A stretch of 38,131 nt of DNA from IMG/VR virus record IMGVR_UViG_3300027851_000071, positions 1 through 38,131 of that record. One strand, written 5' to 3'. Made by a program: the position numbers and the translations under genes. This DNA comes from a virus. Numbering within the stretch: the stretch's first letter is position 1; every line of letters begins with the position of its first letter. This document shows, one piece after another, positions 5,531 to 36,959 of the stretch. Under the pieces are notes generated by a model. It saw only the letters and a list, made by a program, of their open reading frames with translations, had not been told where the DNA came from and did no database searches.

Positions 5531-5540
5531 GAGATTGAGC

Positions 5541-6458
5541 ATGGAAACGACCATTGAGAAGTTTGAAGTCCGCAACCGTTTCAGCGGTGCAGTGCAGTTT
5601 ACAGCGGAGATTAGCGTCACGCCAGATATGTTGCCGAGCGTGAAGCTGGGTCTGGCGGTGAAGTGGGCGCTGACCAATAATACCAACCTGCGCGGTGCCA
5701 ACATGAGCGGTGCCGACCTGAGCGGTGCCGACCTGAGCGGTGCCAACCTACGCTATACCGACCTGCGCGGTGCCAACATGAGCGGTGCCAACCTGCGCGG
5801 TGCCAACATGAGCGGTGCCAACCTACGCTATGCCAACCTGAGCGGTGCCGACCTGAGCGGTGCCAACCTACGCTATACCGACCTGCGCGGTGCCAACATG
5901 AGCGGTGCCAACCTGCGCGGTGCCAACATGAGCGGTGCCAACCTACGCTATGCCGACCTGAGCGGTGCCGACCTGAGCAATGCCGACCTGCGCGGTGCCA
6001 ACATGAGCGGTGCCGACCTGAGCGGTGCCGACCTGAGCGGTGCCAACCTACGCTATACCGACCTGCGCGGTGCCAACATGAGCAATGCCGACCTGCGCGG
6101 TGCCAACATGAGCGGTGCCGACCTGAGCGGTGCCGACCTGAGCCCGATCAAGGCTGACTTCTTCATGATCCTCGCAATGGGGCACACCGAGGTTCCGCAA
6201 CTCATCAAGGCGCTGCGCGATGGCAAGGTGAACGGTTCGACTTACGAAGGCGAGTGCGCTTGCCTTGTCGGCACGCTGGAAAACGGCGGCGCGAAGGGCA
6301 TCCCGCATCAACCATCCTCGCCTGCCGAGGTGTGGTTTGCCCCGATCCGCGAAGGCGACAAGCCCGGTGACGATACCGAAGGCGGTTTTCGCGCCAAGAG
6401 GGCGCTGGGGTGGGCGTTGGAATACGCGCGGCTGACGGGCATTGAGGTGCCCGCATGA
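5541..6458 (+). CDS. Pentapeptide-repeat protein with conserved C-terminal domain
   Basis: A 305-residue protein. Residues 48-202 are 31 consecutive pentapeptides of the A(D/N)LxG type (ADLSG, ANLRG, ANMSG, TDLRG, ANLRY), which should fold as a right-handed quadrilateral beta-helix. Some members of this fold mimic DNA and bind gyrase, but that role is not shown here. The C-terminal ~100 residues (EVPQLIKALRDGKVNGSTYE, then GECACLVGTLENG) form a domain I recognise from other phage pentapeptide proteins. The ATG at 5541 follows GGAGATTGAGC; a TTG six bases upstream is less likely. Repeats are nearly identical in DNA, indicating recent expansion. It overlaps the next gene by ATGA. Confidence 0.85.
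   Translation: METTIEKFEVRNRFSGAVQFTAEISVTPDMLPSVKLGLAVKWALTNNTNLRGANMSGADLSGADLSGANLRYTDLRGANMSGANLRGANMSGANLRYANLSGADLSGANLRYTDLRGANMSGANLRGANMSGANLRYADLSGADLSNADLRGANMSGADLSGADLSGANLRYTDLRGANMSNADLRGANMSGADLSGADLSPIKADFFMILAMGHTEVPQLIKALRDGKVNGSTYEGECACLVGTLENGGAKGIPHQPSSPAEVWFAPIREGDKPGDDTEGGFRAKRALGWALEYARLTGIEVPA
5682..6146 (+). repeat. 15-base coding repeats with higher-order 120-base period
   Basis: Thirty-one 15-base units. Bases 5716-5834 are identical to 5836-5954 (119 bases, period 120), and 5686-5783 are identical to 5986-6083 (98 bases, offset 300). Synonymous positions are conserved too (GGTGCC, AGC, CTG), so the units are homogenised at the DNA level rather than only constrained in protein. 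Confidence 0.95.
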
Positions 6459-8135: not shown

Positions 8136-8144
8136 CACTGATGG

Positions 8145-8221
8145 GACAGGGTGGAGAAGTCCGGTATCTCGCCAGCCTCATAAGCTGGAGAACGCAGGTT
8201 CGAATCCTGCCCCTGCAACCA
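8145..8221 (+). tRNA. tRNA-Met (CAT), initiator-like, with disturbed acceptor stem
   Basis: The cloverleaf is clear: D stem GAGA/TCTC, anticodon stem CCAGC/GCTGG with loop CTCATAA (anticodon CAT), T arm GCAGG-TTCGAAT-CCTGC and an encoded CCA. The body resembles bacterial tRNA-fMet, including a purine-pyrimidine 11:24 pair (A:T) and GCAACCA at the 3' end. Against an initiator, the anticodon stem lacks the three consecutive G:C pairs. In the acceptor, pairs 3-7 match but G1/A72 and A2/C71 do not. If GGA at 8144-8146 is ignored, TG plus CAGGG would pair perfectly with CCCTGCA. The gene ends one base before the stop codon of the opposing spanin gene. Confidence 0.85.
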
Positions 8222-8503
8222 TCACTCCCCCGCCGCATCCATCCAAGCGCGCAGGCCGTCCACTTTGGATCTGCAATCTCCCCAAGCCGAGCGCAGGGCA
8301 AGAATGTATTCTAGCGTCAGGCTATCGCGCACATCTTGTTGATCGCGACCGGGCAGGATCGGCGCAAGCGGTTCATCCGCGCAGGTCGCCAGATTAGCGG
8401 GTGGCAGCACCAGAACGGGCTTCTCGCCGCAAGCTGTCAAAAGCCCCGCGCAAGCGATCATCACCGCCAGCCTCGCGCGCACGTTGGTTTGCCGCTTCAA
8501 CAT
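8222..8503 (-). CDS. Outer-membrane spanin lipoprotein (Rz1-like)
   Basis: A 93-residue protein with a signal sequence and lipobox (IACAGLLTAC, Cys near residue 25), hence a lipoprotein. Its 5' end is nested in a different frame inside the upstream gene (overlap 8394-8503), the classical Rz/Rz1 arrangement. It would link through the periplasm to the inner-membrane spanin and fuse the membranes at lysis. At about 68 mature residues it is longer than lambda Rz1, and proline is not very rich. It is the last late gene; its stop touches the tRNA 3' end. Confidence 0.75.
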   Translation of the reverse strand: MLKRQTNVRARLAVMIACAGLLTACGEKPVLVLPPANLATCADEPLAPILPGRDQQDVRDSLTLEYILALRSAWGDCRSKVDGLRAWMDAAGE

Positions 8504-21856: not shown

Positions 21857-22807
21857 TTAGAGAAGGTCGGCAACCACGCCCGACGCGGCCTGATTAAGAC
21901 AGCGAAGCGCGACTTCAGCCCGCATCAGGCGGCGCTCTGCAAGGCCGGTCTTGGCAAGCGGCTCAATCTTGAGCGCGTCACCGATGCCGACATCCCAATA
22001 TTCGGGATCAACCACCAGAGCATCGCGGGCCGTGGCAAAGCGGTCAGGCACGAACTGAAGTTCGCCAAAGTCAGACACGTAAATATCTGCGCCTGCAACA
22101 ATGCGGATACGACCCCGCCCAGCATCAACACGCTGGTCTGCAAGGCCAGCAAAGCCCGCAGCGACCTGCTTCTGCGCACCGTTAGTGATAACCATCGCGG
22201 GATTACCGCCATTCGTCCAGATCGACTGGAGAACGCCCTTCAGCAGCTGCTCGGTGTAATTGCGCTGCGTGCCGGGGGTTGGTGCCGCCACAATGCCATT
22301 ACTAAACCCACCGTTAGCACCGCTACCGCCGCGCGACACGTTCGAGGTAAGCCATGCCAGCGCACCAGCAGTCTGACCGGCAACCGAAGCCGTAGCGGCG
22401 ACCGAAGCCGAACCACTAAGGAAGCGAGTTTCCATGTCGCGGCGAATTTCACGACCCGCCTTCATGGTTTCACGCGCCAGTTCCGAACGACGACCAGCCT
22501 TATTCGTCCACTCAACAGTGGTCGATGCGCTGATAACCTTCGTGAAAATCTGCGTGTGCGTGCCGACACGAACAGTGTTCGGACGGTTCTGGTTGGGGGT
22601 ATCATCACCCTGCACCGCCGCGTTGTTGCCATTGGCCTGAACCAGACTATCAGTCTGCCATTCGGTGTAGGTGTTGTTAACCGGCGAAGTGCCGATTGCG
22701 TTCATGAACGGGGTTTCGTCCGGAAACAACTCGGCAATGCGGTCGGACAGGTCTTCGCGGACGCCAACGCGCCCGACATTCTGGATGGTATCGGCAGGAA
22801 CAGCCAT
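21857..22807 (-). CDS. Major capsid protein, SU10 type (DUF5309)
   Basis: A 316-residue HK97-fold capsid protein. The N-terminal pattern VGVREDLSDRIAELFPDETP, FMNAIG, then YTEWQTDSLVQANGN is the signature of SU10-like (DUF5309) capsids, and the C-terminal LVVDPEYWDVGIGDALKIEP with a Leu-Ala-rich end agrees. The length is normal. It has its own GAAGGA site and follows the scaffold gene. The assignment is firm by pattern and place. Confidence 0.85.
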   Translation of the reverse strand: MAVPADTIQNVGRVGVREDLSDRIAELFPDETPFMNAIGTSPVNNTYTEWQTDSLVQANGNNAAVQGDDTPNQNRPNTVRVGTHTQIFTKVISASTTVEWTNKAGRRSELARETMKAGREIRRDMETRFLSGSASVAATASVAGQTAGALAWLTSNVSRGGSGANGGFSNGIVAAPTPGTQRNYTEQLLKGVLQSIWTNGGNPAMVITNGAQKQVAAGFAGLADQRVDAGRGRIRIVAGADIYVSDFGELQFVPDRFATARDALVVDPEYWDVGIGDALKIEPLAKTGLAERRLMRAEVALRCLNQAASGVVADLL

Positions 22808-24279: not shown

Positions 24280-24451
24280 TGATAAACCTAGCAAGCGCCG
24301 TGCGCTTGATCTGCATCACCCGCTTGACGACCATGTGATACTCGAAAGTGTCGCCATAAGCCGCGCGGGCCGTGCGGAGCACCTCGGCAACCCAATTCAG
24401 GACATGGCGGCGCGCGAAAAAGCGGGGCGGCACGATCGACGGCTTACGCAT
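24272..24451 (-). CDS. Hypothetical 59-residue basic protein
   Basis: A small ORF (MRKPSIVPPRFFARRHVLNW; VVKRVMQIKRTALARFINA) filling the gap after portal. It overlaps the portal stop and the next start by the same 8-base string ATGCGTAA. It is very basic and helical, so it may bind DNA or the portal. Double coupling supports translation. Its role is unknown. Confidence 0.6.
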   Translation of the reverse strand: MRKPSIVPPRFFARRHVLNWVAEVLRTARAAYGDTFEYHMVVKRVMQIKRTALARFINA

Positions 24452-26495
24452 CCAACCTACCCCCGCTGCGGCTGTCGGCCATGTTGACCTTCAGCCGCGC
24501 CTCGATCTGCGCCTTCATCACCGCAAGCCGCGCCTCGGTTTCCGCCTTGAACTGCGCCAAGTCCAGATTGCCCGCGATCTTCGCCGCCTCAAGCTCCATG
24601 CGGCGCTCCATCTCAAATACGCGCAGTTCAGCGTCGAATGCCGCCTGTTCACGCTTCAGCGCGGCCTCTTCCTGCACCTTCATCACTTCCGGATCGACCT
24701 CAGGCCCTTCCATCGCCTGCTTCTCGGCCATCTGATCGGGCGTAAACATAAAGTCATCGCCCTGCCCAATGCCAGTGTCGCGCGCCACGCCATCCAACCA
24801 CTTAAACGCGTGTTCAGGCCCTGCAAGCCCTTCAGACATGGCCTGTGTCAGCGCCGGATAAAGCGCCATGCGTGCCTGAATGCGCTTGTCTTTGCTACCA
24901 GTCCCTAAGCCAACACGAGCGCGCACGTGCATCTTGTCAGGCCATTGCGACGGATCAACCTGTCGTGCTTTACCATCAACGCGGATCACAAACGGATAGC
25001 CGTCTTCACGCATCATGCGATAAATCTTGATTGCCAGACGCCCGAACGCCTCCGCCATTTGCTTGGCGATAGCTTCTTCCATTTGCTGGCCTGACGCCAT
25101 CATAAGCGCAGTGCCAGTAGCGGTCTTGTTGATCGCGTCCGCATCAAGACCTTGGTTCATGGCCGTGATACCAGTGCGCTTTTCACCCTCACCCGTAGCC
25201 CACTCAAGCACACTCAGCGATTGACCAACGTTGAAGCTGTTTTGCAGCGGCACAACAGCGCCCTGCGAACGCACGCGGATAGGAGCGCCGGGGATCGGGT
25301 TTAGAATATCATCAAGCGTTTCATCCGTGCTGCCGTCTTCCGCGACAATCGGGCGCGGCAGGTTAGAGAACGCCATGCCGTCGTTCATCTGGCGCGCGAC
25401 CATTGAACGTAAATACTGAATGTCCATCACCTTATCGGCAAGCGAATAGCCAACCATCTTGTGTGGGCGCGGGAACGGGGTAAACACAGCGAACGGTTGA
25501 TAATCGACCGTCTCAACCGCCAATTCACCCTCTTCGAACATCGGCTCCCCAAAGCCGTCAAGCGCCTGCTCGCCAGTTTCAGGATCAACAATCGGTGCGC
25601 CCTGATAGCGCAGAATATCACCACCGCAGCGGAACACCTTCACGCGCTCGGCAATGCCGTCACCATCCACATCAATGCGCGCATATTCCTCGCACAACTC
25701 GACATACTCGACAGCGGGAGAGGTTTCCTCATTGTCGTAAAAATCTAGATTGTTGCTCTCATAGTTTTCCAGATCGGTGTCATTGAACCGGGGCAAGTCA
25801 TAAACCTGCGCACGGTCAAAGCCCATTTCGACCAATTCACCGCGCGTTAGGGCCGCGATGTGCGCCACATAGTTTGCGGTGTCCTCATGCTTGGCGCGCG
25901 GGCTAAATCGAAACTCATTTAGCGGCACCGCATGGCCGGTGAAGCAGGTTTCAACCCTAACCGTCTTGAGGGTGGCACGAGCGGTGCCATCGCCGTTTTC
26001 CGTAACGTCCTCAATTTCGGTATCGTCGGGCAACATTCCCAGCGCCTCGACGGTTATGATCACCTCCTCCCGAATTACGCGCTCGCGTTTTTCAGCAACC
26101 GCCTTGAACACACCCATCTTGCGCAACAAGCCATCGTTCAGAACATCATAAAGTGTCCTGTAACCATCCTGCTTGCGCATGAAGTAATAATCGACCGCCG
26201 CCGTAGCATCCACAGCCGATTGTTCATCGCCTTCGTCCTCGGCCTCGAACTCAATCACCCGGTCACCGCTAGTAAACGTGCGCAGGATGCTTTGCGTCAT
26301 GTGGTCGATTGCGGTCTGCACATCCGGCAAGACTATTTGCGAACGACCATCCACCTCATTACCGAACGGTTTGGCCTCGTAATAGTCGAATGCCTGCTGG
26401 TGCAACTCCTCCAGCATTTCAGCATAGCTGTCCGCGTTATCCTTTTCGCGCTGCAAAATGGCGGCAAGCTGCTCGGGCGTGATCGCGGGTTCCAT
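24444..26495 (-). CDS. Portal protein
   Basis: A 683-residue portal, the dodecameric ring through which DNA is packaged and ejected. The N-terminal FDYYEAKPFGNEVDGRSQIV then IDHMTQSILRTFTSGDRVIE is typical of podovirus (SU10/P22-like) portals. A long helical region (residues ~410-500) and a C-terminal coiled coil rich in Glu, Arg and Met (REQAAFDAELRVFEMERRME) could form the barrel. The start shares bases with the upstream stop (TAATG). Position after terminase supports the call. Confidence 0.85.
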   Translation of the reverse strand: MEPAITPEQLAAILQREKDNADSYAEMLEELHQQAFDYYEAKPFGNEVDGRSQIVLPDVQTAIDHMTQSILRTFTSGDRVIEFEAEDEGDEQSAVDATAAVDYYFMRKQDGYRTLYDVLNDGLLRKMGVFKAVAEKRERVIREEVIITVEALGMLPDDTEIEDVTENGDGTARATLKTVRVETCFTGHAVPLNEFRFSPRAKHEDTANYVAHIAALTRGELVEMGFDRAQVYDLPRFNDTDLENYESNNLDFYDNEETSPAVEYVELCEEYARIDVDGDGIAERVKVFRCGGDILRYQGAPIVDPETGEQALDGFGEPMFEEGELAVETVDYQPFAVFTPFPRPHKMVGYSLADKVMDIQYLRSMVARQMNDGMAFSNLPRPIVAEDGSTDETLDDILNPIPGAPIRVRSQGAVVPLQNSFNVGQSLSVLEWATGEGEKRTGITAMNQGLDADAINKTATGTALMMASGQQMEEAIAKQMAEAFGRLAIKIYRMMREDGYPFVIRVDGKARQVDPSQWPDKMHVRARVGLGTGSKDKRIQARMALYPALTQAMSEGLAGPEHAFKWLDGVARDTGIGQGDDFMFTPDQMAEKQAMEGPEVDPEVMKVQEEAALKREQAAFDAELRVFEMERRMELEAAKIAGNLDLAQFKAETEARLAVMKAQIEARLKVNMADSRSGGRLDA

Positions 26496-26845
26496 TAGGC
26501 CACGACCCTCTCAGCGTAAGGAATCAATTCTAGCGGCCATTCATCGGTGCGCACGAAAGGCGCGTCCCCGCCCGGTGCCAAGTGGCCTAGAACCAGACAC
26601 GCTCCGCGATATTCCTTCATGGATTCTTGTGCCTCTTGCTTGAACAGCTTGGCCAATTCAGGCTCGCGCATCACACCCGCCTGCTTTTGCAACGCCAACA
26701 TTTCGTCACGCGCTTTAATCGCGGCCTTGCGCTTAGCGTCAACCTCGCCAGCGCCGGGGGCGAAGTAGAACAGGCGGCGCGCACGCGCGCGCAATGCGGC
26801 AATGCGCGCTTCTTCATTAAGCTGTTCGTATTCCTCTTGTGTCAC
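26495..26845 (-). CDS. Hypothetical protein between terminase and portal
   Basis: A 116-residue protein with a GTG start (GTGA overlap with terminase). It is charged and helical (QLNEEARIAALRARARRLFY; ELAKLFKQEAQESMKEYRG) with a C-terminal PLELIPYAERVV. No domain recognised. Its place suggests an accessory packaging factor. Confidence 0.5.
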   Translation of the reverse strand: MTQEEYEQLNEEARIAALRARARRLFYFAPGAGEVDAKRKAAIKARDEMLALQKQAGVMREPELAKLFKQEAQESMKEYRGACLVLGHLAPGGDAPFVRTDEWPLELIPYAERVVA

Positions 26846-28119
26846 GCAACAGCCCTCTTGAGATTGGATAGGTCCAGCTTGCGGCTGGCGCGCGGCTCCT
26901 GATAGTCAATCGCCGCCAAACCGAAGGCATCCGCGCTATGGCTCGACCAGTCGTGGTTAGGCCCAACACCATATCCGCCATCGTTCTTCTTTTCGTGATA
27001 CCAGCCCAATGCCTTCAGCCCCTTTGCGCACTTGGCTTCATCAAACCAGAAACGATTAAAGCGAGCGCGGGCGGCTTCGATGCGCTTCATGGCAGCGCCC
27101 TTCCCCTGATTAGGAACGGTGCGAACCGTGAAACCAGCATTGCGGATGTGATCCTCAAAGCGCACTGCCGTCACCGCATCCTGTTTTGCGCCGTCATGCG
27201 GCAAGACTTGCTCTGCGCCTTCATATCCGTTTTGCCGCATCCACACAAGATGCGCGGACAAGTCCTGCCCAACCGCCTCGTAGTGATCAATGAAGCGCAA
27301 GTCGCTCCCCTTTTGCTGCACAATCCAGATGGCTGTGGCGTCTCTTACACCAATATCCCAATACGCTCTCAGCGATAGCAGCTTATCTTGCGCCAGCATC
27401 CCGATCCGGCCTTGTTCACGGGCCTCTGCCAAAGCACGCGCAAAATACGCGCTCTCGACAGCCGTGACATAACCGCCCTCCCATATATGATCATATTGTT
27501 CGGGCTGCATTCGGATGCAATCCAATCGCTCTTGCTCAAGTTCGGCAGGAAACCAAGGATTGTCGCACCAGTTGGCGCGAACGACTATTGCCCCGCTAGG
27601 ACTTTCAGAGCCTCGGAGCATTTCATCAACAGCGTCGGTGTCAAAGCGCGGGTTCCAGCTAAACCATAGCTCCGATCCGGGCTTGCGGATTGTAGGGCGC
27701 AACAGGTTCAAGCTGCGCTGCGATACGGTCTGCGCTTCCTCAACCCATGCCACATCAAAGCCCTCATAGGACTTGATGCTTTCGCTTGTGTGATCCTGCA
27801 AGCCAGCAAACGCGATAAGCCCGCCACCCGGCGTCCGAATTTCCGCCGACTGAACGTCGAACAAAGTGCCTAGACCGTATTCCTCGATCTTGCTTTCGAT
27901 CAGCCGCTTTGCCGACTCCTTCAGCGACTTCTGGATTTCGCGGCAGGCCAGAACACGCAAGCCGGGTTCACTTAGGCAGCGGATGATGATTGCGTCGGCA
28001 AAGAATTGTGACTTCCCAGAGCCGCGCCCCCCCCATGCACCTTTGTAGCGCGAACGATCAAGCAATGGCTCGAACACTGGCGCAACCTCGATGGGGAGCC
28101 TATCGCTTGATGACAACAT
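26842..28119 (-). CDS. terL: Terminase large subunit
   Basis: A 425-residue DNA-packaging motor. Walker A is GGRGSGKS at residues 30-37, Walker B lies around FDVAWVEEAQTVS near residue 125, and the C-terminal RNase H-like nuclease carries YWDIGVRDATAIW, LPHDGAKQDAVT and HDWSSHSADAFGLAAIDYQ with the expected acidic residues. The length is normal for this family. Its start lies 20 bases inside the small terminase gene. It translocates and cuts DNA with the portal. Confidence 0.9.
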   Translation of the reverse strand: MLSSSDRLPIEVAPVFEPLLDRSRYKGAWGGRGSGKSQFFADAIIIRCLSEPGLRVLACREIQKSLKESAKRLIESKIEEYGLGTLFDVQSAEIRTPGGGLIAFAGLQDHTSESIKSYEGFDVAWVEEAQTVSQRSLNLLRPTIRKPGSELWFSWNPRFDTDAVDEMLRGSESPSGAIVVRANWCDNPWFPAELEQERLDCIRMQPEQYDHIWEGGYVTAVESAYFARALAEAREQGRIGMLAQDKLLSLRAYWDIGVRDATAIWIVQQKGSDLRFIDHYEAVGQDLSAHLVWMRQNGYEGAEQVLPHDGAKQDAVTAVRFEDHIRNAGFTVRTVPNQGKGAAMKRIEAARARFNRFWFDEAKCAKGLKALGWYHEKKNDGGYGVGPNHDWSSHSADAFGLAAIDYQEPRASRKLDLSNLKRAVA

Positions 28120-30680: not shown

Positions 30681-31409
30681 CTAAAATACCTGCGGGCGCG
30701 CGAAGTAAGTTTCGCCGTCCAATGTGTGCCCGCCCTTGTTGGCAGAACGTCCGCCGACTTGCTTGAAATTGAACACGCGCCCGAGTTCTGCGCTCTGGCG
30801 ACGTATCGACCTTGCCCAATTGAGGTTCATGGGCCGCGCGTTCGGGCCGCTCTCGCCGCCCACAATGATCCAGTCAGGCGCGTTGCTGTCTAGAATGATC
30901 GGGCCAATGAGAGGTTCAAAGCTGCCAAATGTGAAAGCAGGCCCCAATTCCCGCTTCACTTCCGCAAGCGGAATGCGCCCTCTGTCATATTCCTTTTGAT
31001 TTACCATCGTGTGCCCTATGGCAACATTGTTAGGCAGGCCGTATGGCGCCATCTTCAGAACATTACCGATACGCTTGGTAAGAAGCAGCCATACAAGATT
31101 GGAGGTCTCTGCTATCAGTGCGTAAAGGTCGTGCCGCCAAAGCGGATCGACCTCATTGTCAAACACATCCGCCAGCGACGAGCAGAACACGAAGGCTCCC
31201 GGCGTGTCGCGGTTCCACTTGCGCGGCTTGGCCCAATTGCTCGTGCTGGTGCGAACACGCGGCTTGCCTGCGCCCCATTCGACGCGGCCATAACGGGTGT
31301 CCATGAGGGCTTCAGCGTAGCAGTTGTCGCAACCGGGGCCGACTTTGGTGCAGCCCATCCACGGATTGAACGTGTGGTCTGCCCATTCAATTTTCGTATT
31401 CTCCGCCAT
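30681..31409 (-). CDS. PF07505/DUF5131 (Gp37/Gp68) three-Cys protein
   Basis: A 242-residue protein. MAENTKIEWADHTFNPWMGC with the following TKVGPGCDNCYAEAL gives C-x6-C-x2-C, the three-Cys motif of PF07505 phage proteins, which resembles iron-sulfur binding in radical SAM enzymes but is not proven to be such. Downstream motifs (FVFCSSLADVFDNEVDPLWR; WLLLTKRIGNVLKMAPYGLP; DWIIVGGESGPNARPMNLNW) are typical of the family. Its frequent partner TcmP is not in the window. The ATG at 31409 follows AGGAGAGTGTG. Function unknown. Confidence 0.8.
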   Translation of the reverse strand: MAENTKIEWADHTFNPWMGCTKVGPGCDNCYAEALMDTRYGRVEWGAGKPRVRTSTSNWAKPRKWNRDTPGAFVFCSSLADVFDNEVDPLWRHDLYALIAETSNLVWLLLTKRIGNVLKMAPYGLPNNVAIGHTMVNQKEYDRGRIPLAEVKRELGPAFTFGSFEPLIGPIILDSNAPDWIIVGGESGPNARPMNLNWARSIRRQSAELGRVFNFKQVGGRSANKGGHTLDGETYFARPQVF

Positions 31410-31474
31410 CACACTCTCCTACCTGCCGCCCGCTTGTTTGCCTGCGCGATGATATGGCGGCGGCGTTTGGCAGG

Positions 31475-35996: not shown

Positions 35997-36055
35997 CTTA
36001 CGCGGGCGGTTCCTCCCCCGCGTTGACCCCCGATGGCGGGCCGGGGCCGCGTAAG
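35997..36055 (+). ncRNA. Possible three-helix RNA after SSB
   Basis: CTTACGCGG (35997-36005) and CCGCGTAAG (36047-36055) are a perfect 9-bp inverted repeat. Between them GCGG-TTCCTCCC-CCGC (36006-36021) and CCCG-ATGG-CGGG (36029-36040) form two smaller hairpins. It follows the SSB stop in a ~190-base gap without a supported gene. It could be a transcription-control element, a small RNA or the insertion boundary of the endonuclease. Only complementarity supports it. Confidence 0.45.
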
Positions 36056-36066
36056 TAGCCCGCCAC

Positions 36067-36095
36067 TTGACTTAATGCTGCACGGATTTAGTGTA
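36067..36095 (+). promoter_or_regulatory. Weak promoter candidate before the endonuclease gene
   Basis: TTGACT (36067-36072), then 16-17 bases to TAGTGT or AGTGTA. The -35 is good but the -10 is poor. The rest of the gap to 36182 holds no other convincing signal apart from the GGAGG ribosome-binding site. Confidence 0.3.
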
Positions 36096-36182
36096 GTTGA
36101 CGCGCGGCTAGACCGGCCAGTCGAAAAGAGGGATACCCTCCTCCTGCCGCGCTTTCATATGGGTCAACCGGAGGGCGGTTCG

Positions 36183-36959
36183 ATGCAGATCATCACGCGA
36201 CAAGAAGCCAAAGCCAAGGGCCTTAAGCATTACTACACGGGCAAACCGTGCAAGCGCGGTCATGTTTACAAAAGGTTTGTGAGTACCTGCTTATGCGTAA
36301 AGTGCGCTAAACTTTTTGCGCGCCCCTCAAAGGGGATAAAGGCAACATATCATCCTTTTTGCAAAATTGTGAATGACGCGCTGGCCTCCACCGACAGAAA
36401 AGAATTTAGGATAAAATACAACAAATCTTACATGGCCGCATCTAAACGCGGAATTTTGGACCTGTTAACAAAAAGAATGCCTCCCCCGCAGACTAGAGGA
36501 AAGTGGGACCGGCGCGCAATCTTGGTTTGTGCGGCGAAATACAGAATGGCATCTGACTGGTGCTCAGATCACCCCGGAGCCTACGATGCGGCACAAAGGC
36601 TCGGCATTTTATCTGAGGCAACTGCCCACATGGAGCGCGATCTTTCAGACTATGACGCTGTTTACATTTGGGGGTGCAAGTCCGGAAACGAATGGCTTTG
36701 CAAAGTAGGGGTTACGTCCGTTCGACTAGGATATGAAAGGATAAAATCAGTTTCCAAAAAATCAGGCATAGCTTGTGAGTTCGCGATTATCGCAAAGTCA
36801 AAAAACGCTTTGCAAGCCGAAGCATTATTGAAAAAAATCGGGAAACAAGCGGGGTTTGGAGGCTTCAACGGTTCGACAGAGTTTAGGCTCTTAAATGCGA
36901 AAAATCTTAAAAACGCAAACGAGGTGATTTATGAGTATGCAGATACAGCAACGCACTAA
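36183..36959 (+). CDS. GIY-YIG-like homing endonuclease candidate
   Basis: A 258-residue protein; the ATG at 36183 follows CCGGAGG, and longer frames cross the intergenic structure. The N-terminus (HYYTGKPCKRGHVYKRFVST, then CLCVKCAKL) is a zinc finger found in HNH and GIY-YIG nucleases. The centre (GKWDRRAILVCAAKYRMASD, then WCSDHPGAYDAAQRLGIL) matches the helical module often paired with them. The C-terminus (YDAVYIWGCKSGNEWLCKVG and VTSVRLGYERIKSV, then EAEALLKKI) fits a T5orf172-type GIY-YIG domain. Base composition is AT-rich against its neighbours, and it separates SSB from exonuclease, overlapping the exonuclease start. Probably mobile. Confidence 0.7.
   Translation: MQIITRQEAKAKGLKHYYTGKPCKRGHVYKRFVSTCLCVKCAKLFARPSKGIKATYHPFCKIVNDALASTDRKEFRIKYNKSYMAASKRGILDLLTKRMPPPQTRGKWDRRAILVCAAKYRMASDWCSDHPGAYDAAQRLGILSEATAHMERDLSDYDAVYIWGCKSGNEWLCKVGVTSVRLGYERIKSVSKKSGIACEFAIIAKSKNALQAEALLKKIGKQAGFGGFNGSTEFRLLNAKNLKNANEVIYEYADTATH

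Follow-up and report, generated by a model that had tools for sequence, protein, structure and literature searches.

What is to be made of an initiator tRNA gene whose acceptor stem does not close in the usual way? The acceptor stem of a bacterial tRNA is taken to be a clean run of seven pairs, an assumption built into annotation programs and identity rules. The gene considered here lies in a 38,131-base IMG/VR virus record, referred to as the window, and a first-pass annotation had described it as an fMet-like tRNA body with a CCAGC/GCTGG anticodon stem and G1/A72 and A2/C71 mismatches, all of which is correct; it had further proposed that the acceptor stem contained a three-base insertion, GGA. 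The gene call itself was confirmed with ARAGORN, which returned one tRNA-Met(cat) (Table 1), and the Rfam tRNA model matched positions 8145–8217 (55.7 bits, E 1.6e-9). The tRNA is of initiator type because it combines an A11:U24 pair (8155:8169 in the DNA), a CAU anticodon (8179–8181, in the loop CTCATAA) and a genome-encoded CCA (8219–8221), the 3' end reading GCAACCA with its last base at 8221, and the same three features bear out the initiator-like identity first assigned to it. The A11:U24 pair is present in 4,430 of 4,438 cellular initiators and in no elongator tRNA-Met (PMC5143459). There is no strong 1:72 pair, this position being G.A whether the 5' end is set at 8144 or at 8145, and such a mismatch is as expected for an initiator. 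The three G:C pairs with G at 29–31 that mark strict initiators are replaced by A:U, G:C and C:G, with G30:C40 retained, and for this reason the tRNA is classed as initiator-like, short of a strict bacterial initiator.

Table 1. Positions in the window of the tRNA gene, its parts and other phage genes
Feature	Position	Strand	Basis or remark
Leader UGG	8142..8144	+	Complementary to encoded CCA; paired with 8219-8221 in the minimum-energy fold
Acceptor 5' strand, bulged register	8144..8151	+	G8144 opposite A72; G8145:C71; A8146 bulged; C8147-G8151 with 70-66
Initiator-type tRNA-Met(CAU)	8145..8221	+	ARAGORN boundaries; sole tRNA-Met(cat) call
Anticodon arm CCAGC-CTCATAA-GCTGG	8172..8188	+	A29:U41, G30:C40, C31:G39; stem strands 8172-8176/8184-8188
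Acceptor 3' strand CCCTGCA (66-72) and discriminator A73	8211..8218	+	Sequence
Rz-like spanin gene	8222..8503	-	PHROG 456, E 1.8e-8; directly abuts tRNA end, convergent
Major head protein	21857-22807		Window
Portal	24444-26495		Window
Terminase	26842-28119		Window

The window belongs to a podovirus-like phage which, besides the structural genes in Table 1, encodes a primase/helicase, a Sak4-like annealing protein, an SSB and a RecE-like exonuclease. The closest named terminases (54–57% identical) are those of EBPR podovirus 2, Sulfitobacter phage phiGT1 and Bradyrhizobium prophage ppBeUSDA76-2, in none of which is an initiator tRNA annotated. Two phages with related terminases have one annotated tRNA-Trp each (L185 31261–31343 and L187 6930–7000) in place of an initiator-like tRNA. 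A search for syntenic relatives through the window's 879-aa virion protein found none in IMG/VR and weak matches only among named phages, and an exact search of viral contigs with the tRNA core gave no match. The tRNA is the only one in the window and sits at the junction of converging rightward and leftward gene blocks. An attP-type tRNA fragment was ruled out, the tRNA being complete and no integrase being present among the window proteins scanned. Elsewhere, an Rfam int-alpA RNA (36101–36165, plus strand, 41.9 bits, above the cut-off) falls within an ORF of unknown function (36033–36959), the true start of which may be further downstream than called, and the window also encodes a pentapeptide-repeat protein and a DUF5131 protein (5535–6458 and 30681–31412).

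With the 5' end at G8145, pairs 3:70 to 7:66 (CAGGG/CCCTG) all form, and G1.A72 and A2.C71 are unpaired. Leaving out G8144-G8145-A8146 lets T8142-G8143 pair with C71-A72; leaving out A8146 alone also regains a G:C71 pair, with the G.A mismatch remaining at 1:72. The simplest reading of the window has G8144.A72, G8145:C71, a bulged A8146 and C8147:G70, and its bulge score is 6/6 with a bulge against 5/6 without. Predicted folding energies were -22.5 kcal/mol for the three-base bulge, -24.3 for the one-base bulge and -24.4 for an open top, so that the three-base bulge falls some 1.8 kcal/mol short of the one-base bulge, which itself brings the window no predicted gain in stability over the open top. 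Formylation is aided by G2:C71, C3:G70 and A11:U24 (PMC7949028); C3:G70 is present in the window in any case, and G:C71 forms in the bulged register only. From the sequence, A8146 is probably surplus and bulged between acceptor pairs 2:71 and 3:70. The insertion first suggested survives as surplus sequence in the acceptor, best read as one base and not three.

This odd acceptor does not appear to be private to the window. When IMG/VR was scanned for the initiator core, at least 100 phage initiator-like tRNAs turned up, the basis of an unselected sample of 89 unique sequences in which, among the matches listed, 76 were regular, 10 fitted a single acceptor bulge and three fitted neither. A one-base acceptor bulge was needed in 5/303 elongator tRNAs of the same contigs among the matches listed, part of which look like parsing slips; the difference between 10/89 and 5/303 gives a Fisher p of 2.6e-4 on these matches. 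As a control, regular stems were given artificial random double mutations, and a bulge rescued just 3.1% of them, against 10 of the 13 irregular tRNAs among the matches listed (binomial p 2e-13). G2:C71 is nearly invariant in regular phage initiator-like tRNAs (76/78 among the matches listed), and the exceptions are not random: they carry G-[U/C/A]-C at positions 1–3 and keep the 3' end G-C-A-A-C-C-A. Within the unselected sample, position 2 was unpaired solely in tRNAs with G1 (6/6 against 5/80 among the matches listed, Fisher p 1e-6), which is what pairing of G1 with C71 would lead to.

The surplus base lies most often between 2:71 and 3:70 (5'-N-G-[U/C/A]-C...G-C-A-ACCA). Scanning IMG/VR for this form returned 42 contigs, and together with genome matches and the window there were 41 distinct tRNAs (34 GUC, four GCC and three GAC), 36 of which have U before the G; when the 3' constraint was lifted, the acceptor ended in GCA or GCC and in nothing else. 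A further scan, in which a non-G at position 2 was the sole condition, revealed bulges elsewhere in the stem, namely UGCG[U]GGG/CCCCGCA (L190, L192, L193 and L201) and UGCGG[C/U]GG/CCCCGC(A/U) (L204 and L189). These forms lose three of six inner pairs in the unshifted register and none in the shifted one, and such variants, bulged at other positions, make a shifted register hard to deny. In five tRNAs (L041, L054, L058, L061 and L103) it is the 3' strand that bears the surplus base, e.g. CGCGGAG/CTCTCGCA-ACCA; L054, L061 and L103 fit such a 3'-strand bulge better than a 5' one. Where base 72 is C, pairing of G1 with C72 and an unpaired N2.C71 is as simple as a bulge. The window tRNA, whose G2:C71 pair and remaining stem are regained on removal of one surplus base, belongs to a recurrent acceptor-bulged variant of phage initiator-like tRNAs of which we found no description in the open-licence literature.

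The structure of these tRNAs is well kept. In the class with G-[H]-C at the 5' end (n=45) the five inner acceptor pairs are formed in 45/45, as are G1:C71 and C3:G70, bases partly fixed by the way the class was selected, and several pair types occur at 4:69, 6:67, 28:42, 29:41, 50:64 and 51:63. The D, anticodon and T stems of this class (n=45) have 0.13 mismatches per tRNA versus 0.12 in regular ones, and CCA is encoded in 46/53 bulged versus 53/91 regular phage initiator tRNAs among the matches listed. The nearest relative found (L156/L230-L232, in genome G397, IMGVR_UViG_3300032278_000027) shares the podovirus structural module of the window, with protein identities mostly of 43–67%, and carries its tRNA elsewhere in the genome. 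Comparison of the two tRNAs showed the same acceptor, GACAGGG/CCCTGCA, and three compensatory double changes at paired positions (13:22, 28:42 and 31:39). Because these differences are compensatory on both sides of the stems, they read as a mark of selection on structure.

A scan for the G[H]C...GCAA pattern in one genome per species (84,980 prokaryote species) matched 10 genomes, all of them alphaproteobacterial. Six contain a tRNA identical to one in an IMG/VR phage record, and in three more the tRNA adjoins terminase, portal, tail or endolysin genes; the matches appear mostly to be prophages. In a sample of Rhodobacterales, the order of Salipiger mucosus, the form was found in 4/393 genomes and is therefore rare in host genomes, and a chromosomal initiator of one matched genome (L221, downstream of an apparent 5S rRNA) has a regular acceptor. 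In the Salipiger mucosus genome (G002, L222, around position 1500), genes for Met, Ile and initiator-like tRNAs lie clustered; the final one, TGGCGGGG, may have the same bulge, its surplus base being G. Among isolated phages, the GUC form is carried by Sinorhizobium phage phiLM21 and Rhizobium phage RHph_TM3_3_3. In the phiLM21 record (NC_029046 21148–21224; L172 595–671) the strand annotated for the tRNA-Met is apparently the reverse of its coding strand. Initiator-like tRNAs are unannotated in the public records of Mesorhizobium phage vB_MseS-P1 (L171 1501–1573, where a called CDS overlaps) and of Erythrobacter phages R6L and ZS04 (L121 and L122 2001–2092).

Compared with alphaproteobacterial tRNA-fMet, the window tRNA shares A11:U24, the CAU anticodon, the CUCAUAA loop, A73 with CCA, a weak 1:72, C3:G70 and A29:U41, and differs in the surplus acceptor base and in having C31:G39 in place of G31:C39. 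The tRNAs of phiLM21 and RHph_TM3_3_3, with acceptor G-U-C...G-C-A-A-C-C-A, have the bulge at the same position but with U as the bulged base where the window has A, and differ at position 9 (GUAGAG). An acceptor 5' strand of eight bases recalls tRNA-Sec, with its 8 bp acceptor; unlike in tRNA-Sec, the extra base of the window is unpaired and the stem keeps six to seven pairs. The anticodon stem, whose alteration had been singled out in the first-pass annotation, has the combination AGC/GCU, which is missing, like TGG/CCA, from the cellular initiator table of PMC5143459 but is not private to this phage: AGC/GCT is found in 8/89 phage initiator-like tRNAs of the IMG/VR sample, AGG/CCT in 32/89 and TGG/CCA in 11/89, all among the matches listed. 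In cellular initiators AGG/CCU accounts for 522/4,438 (12%) (PMC5143459). More than half of the phage initiator-like tRNAs among the matches listed have U:A or A:U at 29:41, A:T being the commonest phage type there among these matches.

Given the gene with its determinants, a bulged register that recurs among homologues, and a conserved structure, we consider it probable that positions 8144/8145–8221 encode a functional phage initiator-type tRNA with a one-base acceptor bulge. A much less likely explanation is that G8145 is the mature 5' end and that G1.A72 and A2.C71 are simply unpaired, without any bulge, the U(-1) of most homologues being an RNase P signal and the open top of the helix an initiator-like trait. 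ARAGORN and Rfam both start the tRNA at 8145, and G.A at 1:72 is on record in 7/4,438 cellular initiators (PMC5143459). RNase P favours U(-1) (PMC9433436), and base 0 is U in 44/53 bulged tRNAs whatever base 72 is, staying U where 72 is C; a test for covariation between bases 0 and 72 in the bulged tRNAs found none, and the U may partly reflect the RNase P preference instead of pairing. However, two unpaired positions explain neither the retention of C71, nor the constant G1 when position 2 is unpaired, nor the UGCG[U]GGG forms, and an unpaired 2:71 should cost formylation.

That GGA is a three-base insertion, and that the stem is really topped by T8142:A72 and G8143:C71, seems very unlikely. 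The pairing is perfect on paper, and TG-GGA-CAGGG of the window corresponds to TG-AGA-CAGGG in the nearest relative, but the energetic penalty given above stands against it, members with a base 0 other than U (L129, L151, L172 and L080) lack a TG further upstream, and a three-base bulge is absent from the other tRNAs surveyed. Least credible of all is a decaying, non-functional gene, to which the irregular acceptor and a leader able to pair with CCA might point: the remaining stems are perfect, CCA is kept, the differences from the relative are compensatory and conservation is class-wide, and the dozens of distinct phage tRNAs that have a surplus acceptor base with their other stems intact speak against the inactivation by insertion that had been suggested.

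For the bulged tRNA we infer processing, charging, formylation and role as follows. The 5' end would be trimmed by host RNase P, with CCA already encoded. In the mature tRNA G8144 would face A72 unpaired, or no base would stand there should RNase P cut at 8144|8145, and an unusual 5' end, as envisaged at first, is possible; G8145:C71 would then be followed by the bulged A8146, C8147:G70 and an otherwise regular stem. Base 0 of the window is G, not U, and its leader dinucleotides are GG or UG, both of which E. coli RNase P handles poorly (PMC9433436). Processing may be slow, since the leader UGG can pair with CCA and leader-CCA pairing slows the E. coli enzyme (PMC9433436). Host MetRS would charge the tRNA and the host formylase would still read the weak 1:72 end together with G2:C71, C3:G70 and A11:U24. 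The phage tRNA would then supplement or replace the host initiator pool in infection, and the supply of initiator capacity during infection is its most likely role.

It is conceivable, if unlikely, that the bulge itself is selected and gives phages of alphaproteobacteria a semi-private initiator pool, poorly recognized by host enzymes and accepted by formylase, IF2 and the ribosome. The enzymes evaded might then be, with the same small likelihood, VapC-type RNases or toxins modifying the aminoacyl or 3' end, acting at the acceptor end or the anticodon arm. VapC RNases target initiator tRNA, including one from the alphaproteobacterium Bosea (PMC8522696), and phage tRNAs have been proposed as replacements for host tRNAs cut by such RNases (PMC10264068); that the bulge or C31:G39 helps escape from an enzyme is speculation. 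If initiator-like tRNAs repeatedly have a one-base bulge at the end that enzymes contact most, this would show tolerance by RNase P, formylase and IF2, and bulges at several positions of an otherwise perfect tRNA would supply natural variants for studying why initiator tRNAs occur in phages at all.
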